A stretch of DNA of 43,391 nucleotides, taken from Coriobacteriia bacterium (GTDB lineage: Bacteria; Actinomycetota; Coriobacteriia; Anaerosomatales; SLCP01). The notes beneath the pieces were generated by a model that saw only the letters and a program-made list of their open reading frames with translations, made no database searches and was not told the origin of the DNA. The translations under genes were made by a program, and so were the position numbers. The stretch lies in the NCBI GenBank assembly GCA_030603745.1, contig JAUVXE010000007.1, positions 1 through 43,391 of the forward strand, written 5' to 3'. Positions 24,900 through 29,490 of the stretch are shown here, piece after piece; position 1 is the stretch's first letter, and the number at the start of each line of letters is the position of its first letter.

Positions 24900-26969
24900 C
24901 TACCGGCGGCTCAGCCCGACGTGGCACTGCGCACACTCGGTGGGCTCGTGGCACGAGAAGCACGGCTGGGCGCCGGTCTGGCGCACGATCGCCGGGTGCT
25001 CGAGCGTCCACGGGCGGGCACCGGTGGCGCCCTCGTGGTGGCAGTTGTCGCAGAAGAGCTGGACGTGGCAGTTCGTGCAGACCGGCTTGGTCAGGCTGCC
25101 ATCCTGGAATCCGGTGGCATGCGTGTCCTTGAAGTCGGCCGGGTGCGGGATCTCGATGCGGTGGCAGTCGACACAGAACTGTGCCTGCAGGCCACCCTCT
25201 CCGTGGCAGTACGCGCAGTTCTCAGGCTTCTCGTTGAAGGCCTGCGGGTGCGCGGCCGGGGTGTCGAGCGCCGGACGGCGGACGAAGTCCGCGGCCTGGT
25301 GCGACGTCGGCACCACGGTGAGGCTGTTGTGGCAGTCCACGCAGAACTCGCGGTTATGGCACTTGTCGAAGCAACCCTCGCCGCCGATGTCGTTGACCAC
25401 GTTGGCGTGGACCCTCAGCCACGGCTGACCGTCGATCGCGCCCTCGTGGTGGCAGTCGCTACACAGCTCGACGAAGGTGTGGCAGTTGGAGCACACGTCC
25501 GGATCCTGACGACCCGTCGCGGCGTGGAACTCCTTGAAGTCCTGCGGGTGGGGCATCTCCAGCACGTGGCAGCCCTGGCAGAACGTGGAGTTCGCACCGC
25601 CGTCGCCGTGACAGACCTCACACGCGGTGATCTCGGTCTTGGCGGACTCGGCGTGCACGCCGATCTCAGCGGCAGGCTTCCTGAGCCAGTCAGCGGCCTG
25701 GTGCGAGGTCGGGATCGGGTTCAGCGCCGTGTGGCACTCCTGGCAGTAGGAGATCTCGTGGCATGCCTCGAGGCAGCCCGGCACGCCGTTCGTGCGAACG
25801 GCCGCGGCGTGCTGCTCCTGCTCCCAGGCGACGTCGGTCTGGAACTCCCAGTTCGACGCGGTGCCGTGGTGGCAGCTGTCGCAGAAGTACGGGTCGACCG
25901 AGGTGTGGCACATCTCGCACTTCTCGGCCTGGGTCGCGACGAGTTCCGGATGGGTCTTGGTGCGGAACTCGGTCGGGTGCGGCATCTCCATGCCATGGCA
26001 GTCCATGCAGAACTGCGACTCGATGTGGCACGTCGAGCAGTATCCGACGGCAGCAGGGGCCGGGAGGTGCTCGATGCGCTGGTACATCGGCGCATCGTCG
26101 GCAAGCTCCCCGCCATCCGCAGCGTACGCGGAAGCGACGCCGAGCGCCGACTCCTCGGTGCCCTCGTCCTCCGCCGCCTCGTCCTCGGCGGCCTCTCCTG
26201 AACCGGTCGCCGCAGCCTTGGCCTCGATGTCCTCAAGGGCCATGTCGGCGTGACCGCGCGGATAGAAGTCCGCGACGAGGTGGTTGGAGGGCTTGAGCTC
26301 GAAATCGGGCGTGTGGCACGCCGAACACGCGCCCGGTGCGGGGATGCCGCCCGGGGACTCGTCGGTCAGCGTGTGGCACCGGAAGCAGGCCGTCATGAGC
26401 ATGAAGTCGTCATGCTTCTGGTTCGGCTCGCCGGTGTTGGGGTCGGTCAGCGTGAGGTCGAAGTCCTCCTTGTGACCGACACGGTTGTGACAGACCGTGC
26501 ACCAGATCTCCGCCTCGGAGTGCACATCGTGATCGATCAGGATGCCGGGACTCGGCGTGATCACGCGGTTCTCCAGGTTGTGGCACTGGGTGCACTGCTT
26601 CTCCGGGAAGTACTTCTTGCTGAGAGCGAGGTGCGAGCCGGGGTTGAGCGGCAGATGGAATTTGTTCGTTGCCGTCAGGTAGAGCTCGCCGAGCGCCTCG
26701 GCCTTCTTGAGTACGAACCCGATCGGAGTGATGCCCACGGGCACATGGCACGCCATGCACGAGACCTGGGAGTGCGTGGACCTGTCATAGGCGATGATGG
26801 AGTCGTCCTGGACCTTATGGCAGACCTCCGCGCAGAACCAGTAAGTCGATGTCACCCCCAATGCTGTGACGACGAACGCGGCCAGCACCAGGACCACCAC
26901 ACCGGTCCAGATGATGTACCGCGGTCGACGGACCGGATCCTTGAATCCGGCCAGCGATACTTTCGCCAT
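24900..26969 (-). CDS. Membrane-anchored 24-heme cytochrome c
   Basis: A 689-residue electron carrier. One transmembrane anchor (about 19-41) is followed by an N-terminal part resembling NapC/NrfH quinol dehydrogenases with six heme motifs (46-219), an acidic Ala/Glu/Asp linker (about 245-295), then three related units of six heme motifs each (about 311-449, 450-584, 585-685). In total 21 CxxCH and three CxxxCH (CAEVCH, CLEACH, CFDKCH) give 24 candidate hemes. Each later unit repeats signatures such as EMPHP/EIPHP, CxxCHH and PTSHQAAD. It probably takes electrons from menaquinol to the cell exterior or a terminal reductase (inference). The second ATG (26967-26969) has the better-spaced GGAG. 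Confidence 0.93.
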   Translation of the reverse strand: MAKVSLAGFKDPVRRPRYIIWTGVVVLVLAAFVVTALGVTSTYWFCAEVCHKVQDDSIIAYDRSTHSQVSCMACHVPVGITPIGFVLKKAEALGELYLTATNKFHLPLNPGSHLALSKKYFPEKQCTQCHNLENRVITPSPGILIDHDVHSEAEIWCTVCHNRVGHKEDFDLTLTDPNTGEPNQKHDDFMLMTACFRCHTLTDESPGGIPAPGACSACHTPDFELKPSNHLVADFYPRGHADMALEDIEAKAAATGSGEAAEDEAAEDEGTEESALGVASAYAADGGELADDAPMYQRIEHLPAPAAVGYCSTCHIESQFCMDCHGMEMPHPTEFRTKTHPELVATQAEKCEMCHTSVDPYFCDSCHHGTASNWEFQTDVAWEQEQHAAAVRTNGVPGCLEACHEISYCQECHTALNPIPTSHQAADWLRKPAAEIGVHAESAKTEITACEVCHGDGGANSTFCQGCHVLEMPHPQDFKEFHAATGRQDPDVCSNCHTFVELCSDCHHEGAIDGQPWLRVHANVVNDIGGEGCFDKCHNREFCVDCHNSLTVVPTSHQAADFVRRPALDTPAAHPQAFNEKPENCAYCHGEGGLQAQFCVDCHRIEIPHPADFKDTHATGFQDGSLTKPVCTNCHVQLFCDNCHHEGATGARPWTLEHPAIVRQTGAQPCFSCHEPTECAQCHVGLSRR

Positions 26970-27048
26970 AGACATCTCTCCTCGCTCTGCCTCGGTACTA
27001 CGACGACGTTATCTTGTGAATCACGGCACGATGCCGCTCATCGGAACA

Positions 27049-28936: not shown

Positions 28937-29140
28937 ATGACCACGTACCACATCGACCTGTCCATCTGCGACCGATCGCCGGGCTGTCCGGCACGCCGCG
29001 CATGCCCCCAGGGCGCCATCGTCCCGGTCGAGGGCGGAGCGTATCCGGGAGGCGCGGGGTACACAGTCATTGAAGAGCGGTGCACCGGATGCGGCGCGTG
29101 CATGAGGGCCTGCCCTGCCCGGGCGGTCTCCGCGCGATGA
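28937..29140 (+). CDS. Small ferredoxin-like 4Fe-4S protein
   Basis: A 67-residue protein. The C-terminal half has a complete CxxCxxCxxxCP motif (Cys49, 52, 55, 59) for one [4Fe-4S] cluster. The N-terminal half has Cys11, Cys17 and Cys23-Pro with wide spacing, so a second cluster would be atypical or lost. ATG 28937 is preceded by GAGGAGG. It is the first gene of a two-gene operon controlled by the CsoR/CstR-type operator. Its stop overlaps a possible start of the next gene, whose preferred start is 12 bases further on. It probably supplies electrons to the selenoprotein or its substrate (inference). Confidence 0.85.
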
Positions 29141-29151
29141 AAGGGGTCCCC

Positions 29152-29490
29152 ATGACCGATCCGAACGTCGTCGTCGACGTGTTCGACCTGCCCAGCCAGA
29201 CCGCGTGCTACAGCGGCGGATGAGGGCCCTCGTGGTCTCCGGAGGAGATCACCGAGATCATCCGCGTCGAGATGGAGCGCCGCTTCGGCGACGCCGCGAC
29301 CATCCGCTACCACGACGTCGGTGAGGAGTCAGTGCGCGCGGAGCACGCAGCGGTCCTCGACGAGATCGACCGGAAGGGGCTGCTCTACCCGGTCACCGTG
29401 ATCGGCGGCGTGCCGGTATACGACGGCGCGGTGTCCTATCCGGGGATCTTGCGAGCCGTGCGCGAGCGCCTCGAGCGCACGCGCGCCTGA
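29152..29490 (+). CDS. Thioredoxin-like selenoprotein with in-frame TGA (Sec24)
   Basis: A 112-residue protein if the TGA at 29221-29223 is read as selenocysteine. Read through, the frame gives CYSGG-U-GPSWSPEEITEI, a Cys19-x4-Sec24 redox pair, followed by a continuous thioredoxin-like fold ending YPVTVIGGVPVYDGAVSYPG. The layout recalls the YuzD-type disulfide oxidoreductases. Codon use and protein sense continue unchanged across the TGA. A bacterial SECIS-like hairpin follows at 29232-29252. The ATG at 29152 has AAGGGG five bases upstream; ATG 29137 is an in-frame alternative. If the TGA stopped translation, only a 23-residue peptide would be made. The Sec insertion genes (selA-D) are outside this window. 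Confidence 0.8.
29232..29252 (+). promoter_or_regulatory. SECIS-like stem-loop behind the in-frame TGA
   Basis: Arms GTGGTCTCC (29232-29240) and GGAGATCAC (29244-29252) form nine pairs (one G-U) closed by the loop GGA. The loop begins 17 bases after the TGA and starts with G. These features meet the published bacterial SECIS criteria (loop 3-14 nt, stem 4-16 bp, 16-37 nt from UGA, G in the first two loop bases). An outer CTC/GAG helix with one bulge can extend it. Confidence 0.7.

Follow-up and report, generated by a model that had tools for sequence, protein, structure and literature searches.

Gene callers routinely miss or truncate the genes of selenoproteins, which contain selenocysteine (Sec), the rare 21st amino acid. 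To date, 119 prokaryotic selenoprotein families and subfamilies have been compiled in a 2026 catalogue (PMC13188914), in which the bacterial SECIS (bSECIS) element is modelled as a hairpin with an apical loop of 3-9 nt, an upper stem of 4-16 bp, a G in the first two loop positions (mostly then G or U), 16-37 nt between the UGA and the loop, and a minimum free energy (MFE) of at most -7.5 kcal/mol. Three kinds of described proteins are closest to the one reported herein. First, thioredoxin and the Trx-fold selenoproteins of the UxxC and CxxU types (PMC13188914) share the Trx fold, the position of Sec near the first helix and the UGA with a bSECIS element, whereas the motif in the present protein is C-x4-U and not CxxC, CxxU or UxxC; the conserved Pro of its YPVT motif probably stands where the cis-Pro of thioredoxins would be expected. 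Second, DUF1462, a family of unknown function with the solved Staphylococcus aureus protein SA0798/SA0789 (1xg8), shares the thioredoxin-like fold, the length and a Cys in a similar place, but 1xg8 shows a CxxC-like spacing, has no Sec and is about 16% identical. Third, the arsenic metallochaperone ArsD (PF06953; 3mwh, 3kgk and 3ktb), in which Cys12, Cys13 and Cys18 are reported to be essential for chaperone function (PMC4562236), shares the fold, and its Cys13-x4-Cys18 corresponds to Cys19-x4-Sec24 of the present protein; however, Cys18 is here Sec, Cys13 is kept, the equivalent of Cys12 is absent, and the host has no ArsA.

In the present study, the gene at 29152-29490 of the window (the whole analysed stretch of 43,391 nucleotides, which forms the first 43 kb of a contig from a Coriobacteriia genome of about 2.1 Mb) is proposed, with a probability of about 0.9, to encode a real selenoprotein with a thioredoxin fold of the DUF1462/ArsD kind, the insertion of Sec itself being what we infer. 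In other words, what appears at first to be a gene interrupted by a stop codon is almost certainly intact, with this codon being read as Sec, and a gene common to almost a whole order would otherwise be overlooked. The 119 families of the catalogue include neither a DUF1462- or ArsD-like member nor a C-x4-U motif (PMC13188914), no model of the NCBIfam release of June 2026 matched any of the subfamilies tested, and no report on ArsD, DUF1462, GGUGP or Coriobacteriia selenoproteins was retrieved from freely accessible journal papers. Bacterial Trx-fold selenoproteins are known, whereas this family and its active-site arrangement, a C-x4-U pair added to a fold of the DUF1462/ArsD type, appear to be new.

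Results

Reading frame and coding character

The features of the locus are collected in Table 1. When TGA is translated as Sec (U), 29152-29490 reads MTDPNVVVDVFDLPSQTACYSGGUGPSWSPEEITEII...RTRA, with C19 and U24, so that the frame described in the original prediction, from ATG 29152 across the TGA to 29490, was confirmed on translation. This ATG coincides with the start positions of most homologues, and a second possible in-frame start, ATG 29137, overlaps the stop of the ferredoxin gene (ATGA), which lies 11 bases before ATG 29152. Without recoding, the only open reading frame visible to a gene caller has 72 aa (29272-29490), in agreement with the earlier expectation of a truncated downstream part. 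The GC contents at the three codon positions are 0.61/0.43/0.91 for codons 1-23 and 0.73/0.47/0.92 for codons 25-112; thus, both halves look coding because of their GC-rich third positions, as had been claimed from codon bias.

Table 1. Coordinates of the features at the selenoprotein locus
Feature	Position	Strand	Basis
Small Fe-S (4Fe-4S type) ferredoxin gene, probably co-transcribed	28937..29140	+	Pfam Fer4 / Fer4_7 above cut-off; directly upstream in about 50/61 homologous loci
Shine-Dalgarno-like AAAGGGG, five bases 5' of ATG 29152	29140..29146	+	Sequence
Proposed selenoprotein gene, 112 aa, Sec at residue 24, C-x4-U motif, thioredoxin-like fold	29152..29490	+	Homologues in about 100 genomes; fold prediction
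Cys19 codon, presumed resolving thiol of the C-x4-U pair	29206..29208	+	Cys in 61/61; lost in distant homologue L111
In-frame UGA, proposed Sec codon of residue 24	29221..29223	+	TGA in 61/61 homologues examined at the DNA level (order and class), and in further families
Bacterial SECIS hairpin core	29232..29252	+	Arms 29232-29240 and 29244-29252, loop GGA 29241-29243; covariation, synonymous-site constraint, published model

Taken alone, an open frame around one TGA is weak evidence for recoding. Table 11 assigns TGA as a stop, and frames of this kind are common in the GC-rich window, where 48 TGA codons have an ATG-open stretch of at least 20 codons before them and at least 80 codons after them; both facts would suit a pseudogene, or a genuine stop after a short upstream peptide. 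The frame is nevertheless more than chance, because the homologue and its TGA are conserved across genomes, and the conservation of the protein in about 100 genomes, the invariant TGA, the synonymous constraint and the covarying hairpin after the TGA, all of which are described below, make a pseudogene or a true stop highly improbable. A changed genetic code, in which TGA would be read as Trp or Cys, has a negligible probability: the frame would be open under any reassignment of TGA, but tRNA-Sec and the sel genes are present, and the reading was rejected because the selenoprotein gene itself terminates in TGA (29488-29490), as does the ferredoxin gene (29138-29140).

Conservation of the TGA among relatives

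The main sample comprised 99 genomes, namely the host and its relatives. A homologue was present in 63 of them (the host and 62 relatives), with a TGA within the match in 63/63, and a Cys form at the Sec site was observed in none of the 63 homologue-bearing genomes among the 99 searched. The DNA was read for 61 of the 63 homologues (loci L009-L069), the other two being scored with one TGA in the match; codon 24 was TGA and residue 19 was Cys in all 61, and the motif was mostly C-x-S/G-G-G-U-G-P-S/T-W. When the sample was widened to 398 genomes of the class, the same 63 carriers were returned and again no Cys form. Sampling of the phylum added 20 genomes in which a TGA occupies the corresponding position (families f46, f48, f54 and f98), together with two true ArsD proteins (L112 and L113) that carry Cys at the Sec site, and sampling of the class of genome G616 gave 27 genomes, each with one TGA in the match, of which 17 were new. 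In total, about 100 genomes of one phylum have a homologue in which the equivalent codon is TGA, and no clear Cys orthologue was found among them, one divergent homologue (L089) being ambiguous. The more distant true ArsD, with Cys at this site, agrees with the earlier idea that the TGA sits where a redox Cys is expected, and a sequencing error, which had been named as a possible refutation, is excluded because independent genomes carry the same TGA.

The Cys form of the motif was sought in 84,980 species with a query back-translated with Cys codons and therefore blind to TGA forms; the four matches obtained, three of which were read out, appear to be fortuitous and in other frames. The homologue search of plasmids gave no match. 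One further candidate, L110, was dropped as a homologue: its match was weak and partial, and the hairpin was absent. The distant homologue L111 lacks Cys19 (MDMWRGGGU), and therefore the redox pair is not universal. Sec24 is better conserved than Cys19, consistent with Sec being the essential residue. The lack of a clear Cys orthologue is unusual and suggests that selenium is essential to the chemistry of the family, and why some proteins keep Sec and never revert to Cys becomes a testable question through it.

The hairpin after the TGA

The hairpin GTGGTCTCC-GGA-GGAGATCAC has 9 bp and a folding energy of about -12 kcal/mol (-12.0 kcal/mol for the 9-bp stem), and its loop is separated from the UGA by 17 nt. 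A nine-pair hairpin with a GGA loop at SECIS distance had been noted before, and it agrees with all four constraints of the bSECIS model (3-nt loop and 9 bp, GGA, 17 nt, -12.0 kcal/mol). In other homologues, the loops are GGC, GUC or UGA, the spacing from the UGA to the loop is 17-22 nt in other families, and the bare stems of some are weaker than that of the window. The energy is ordinary for the composition (z -0.91 against shuffles); MFE z-scores fail to separate the hairpin from the background and were left out as support, and the argument for a SECIS element therefore rests on evolution.

Two observations make up this argument. First, synonymous choice is constrained where the codons enter the hairpin. 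At +5, Ser is encoded by TCT in 57/57 sequences, whereas TCT accounts for 7% of Ser codons elsewhere in the gene, and the third base of this codon is paired in the stem. At +6, Pro is encoded by CCG in 58/59, compared with 38% elsewhere in the gene, and the G of this codon is the first loop base. Several synonyms are in use at codons +1, +2, +3 and +10. In three members of the order, ACT replaces TCT and one stem pair is broken. Second, the stem covaries. The loop-closing pair is C-G, U-A, A-U or G-C across the families, and the second core pair is G-C, U-A, G-U or U-G. Among 23 cores (distinct variants in an ungapped alignment, so that the counts are of variants and not of independent events), 96.2% of cells were paired compared with 83.7% after shuffling (0/500 shuffles as high), and double changes were observed in 23 cells compared with 8.0 in the shuffles; slid controls gave 32-57% paired, at most 56.5%.

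Selenocysteine machinery in the host and relatives

The search for sel genes that had been proposed as a check was run, and selC (72.1 bits, above the cut-off), selB, selA and selD were found together at 96.0-101.1 kb of the contig to which the window belongs. The selD gene of the host also contains an in-frame TGA (LTELSSKAGUAAKWGPEDL), which lies within KAGUxxK, the usual Sec site of SelD. Among the relatives, selA was present in 52/63 genomes with the gene compared with 17/36 without it (Fisher p 5e-4, with relatedness ignored), and in 21/23 genomes of the distant matches. In 11/63 carriers, mostly fragmented assemblies, no selA match was obtained; the near-complete G053 and G055 are among them, and tRNA-Sec matched strongly in only 3 of these 11. 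Broken contigs are a likely explanation, as the sel cluster would fall past the contig ends. The distance from selA to the selenoprotein gene is about 50-70 kb in many relatives (the sel cluster of the host lies at C20:96-101 kb), and, to judge from this spacing, the contig that carries the gene in G053 and G055 appears to stop before the expected site of the cluster.

Fold and nearest families

A model was computed with AlphaFold from an alignment of 18 sequences, with Cys in place of Sec, and a thioredoxin-like fold was obtained (pLDDT 88.4, pTM 0.81), the loop carrying C19 and U24 being the least certain part. The structural matches were 1xg8 (Z 9.6, 103 residues, rmsd 3.4), ArsD 3mwh (Z 8.8) and 3kgk (Z 8.6), and thioredoxins (Z about 8-9); most of these Z values lie within about 1 of each other, and therefore the fold class is firm and the order within the class is not. 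By profile, DUF1462 (PF07315) matched residues 24-102 with 28.1 bits against a gathering threshold of 25, and matched all 18 aligned members, with distant subfamilies below the cut-off. ArsD reached 12.9 bits, far below its cut-off of 27, with weak matches in 13/18 aligned members, and no Pfam match to Thioredoxin (PF00085), with its WCGPC-type CxxC, was obtained. Thus, the original designation as thioredoxin-like was right for the fold; the families closest to the protein, however, are DUF1462 and ArsD and not thioredoxin. The family thereby gives a handle on DUF1462.

Discussion

The conserved TGA, the covarying SECIS element and the sel genes together support the reading of this gene as a selenoprotein gene. 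Herein, we propose the following mechanism. First, SelB and tRNA-Sec, directed by the hairpin right after the UGA, would insert Sec at residue 24. The active site would then consist of the Sec24 selenol and of Cys19, five residues earlier, on the loop after the first strand. Second, Sec24 could attack a disulfide, a persulfide or another oxidised or soft-electrophile substrate, and Cys19 might resolve the resulting bond as a selenenyl sulfide. Third, a partner may re-reduce the protein, possibly the adjacent ferredoxin here and thioredoxin in some distant relatives. The protein is thus probably a small selenol-thiol (C-x4-U) redox protein, in which catalysis, electron donor and substrate are inferred, and the best reading of the whole is a new, Sec-only family of such proteins.

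The gene neighbourhood bears on this function. Downstream of the selenoprotein gene, a gene of the DUF362 Fe-S type is found in 15 loci, and a convergent gene with a DnaJ domain comes next in many others, the window included. In family f54, a thioredoxin gene lies upstream and an FmdB-like zinc-ribbon gene downstream in all six loci (L118, L120, L121, L131, L132 and L133, among L114-L133). In family f48, a gene for a ThiI/tRNA-thiolase-like ATP pyrophosphatase (NFACT-R_2 domain) precedes in nearly every locus examined (L095, L102, L105 and most f48 loci among L114-L130). Most neighbours share electron or thiol transfer, and therefore a selenol-thiol redox role is favoured; the partners differ between families, and therefore the electron donor is uncertain.

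The ThiI-like neighbour of f48 would also fit a protein that carries sulfur or selenium as a persulfide or perselenide, in other words chalcogen trafficking and not classical disulfide exchange, and a selenol close to a single Cys would be well suited to such chemistry. In the order to which the window belongs, however, this neighbour was not seen and a ferredoxin adjoins instead, and we consider a carrier of this kind quite unlikely.

The resemblance to ArsD raises the possibility of a chaperone for soft metals or metalloids, in which Sec24 and Cys19 would ligate an arsenite-like metalloid and pass it to a partner. Sec and Cys19 align with the ArsD residues Cys18 and Cys13, the true ArsD proteins L112 and L113 are the next matches of the profile, and the fold matches that of ArsD (Z 8.8). 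In addition, the divergent homologue L089 lies within an arsenic-type cluster with two ArsA-like ATPases, a zinc ribbon and an SBF/ACR3-type transporter. Against a chaperone, full-length ArsA was found in 4/99 genomes and was absent from the other 95, including the host, in which only a P-loop fragment matched, and no ars genes flank the gene in the host or in nearly all relatives; the equivalent of ArsD Cys12 is not conserved, and the neighbours are redox proteins. The known ArsD mechanism cannot operate in genomes that have no full-length ArsA, and an arsenic-chaperone role coupled to ArsA is therefore disfavoured. A metalloid chaperone is thus possible but unlikely, and a selenol-thiol redox protein is preferred. 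A broader reading, which we regard as doubtful, would see in this Sec-only family, spread over several classes of one phylum, a fold of the ArsD type in which selenium replaces the metalloid-binding Cys18, so that the selenol might handle a soft-metal, metalloid or chalcogen substrate beyond the reach of any Cys version.

The locus of L089 (family f88, G621:C6, about 36.7-40 kb) deserves separate description. At the aligned site, it has C-x4-C, and an in-frame TGA stands nine codons before the aligned Cys, followed by a hairpin of -11.6 kcal/mol. From these features, it is possibly a Sec-containing ArsD, and its position in the arsenic-type cluster suggests that a relative of this fold probably serves arsenic handling somewhere in the group.

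Several minor observations were also made. In the ferredoxin encoded beside the selenoprotein gene, the first Cys cluster is unusual (C-x5-C-x5-C-P) and the second is normal (CxxCxxCxxxC). A short gene that by eye looks like DUF523 stands before the ThiI-like gene in L102 and L105. Finally, a large multihaem c-type cytochrome with many CxxCH motifs and, by eye, a NapC/NirT-like start is encoded at 24900-26975 on the reverse strand of the window, and similar multihaem cytochromes are found near the selenoprotein gene in L068 and L069.
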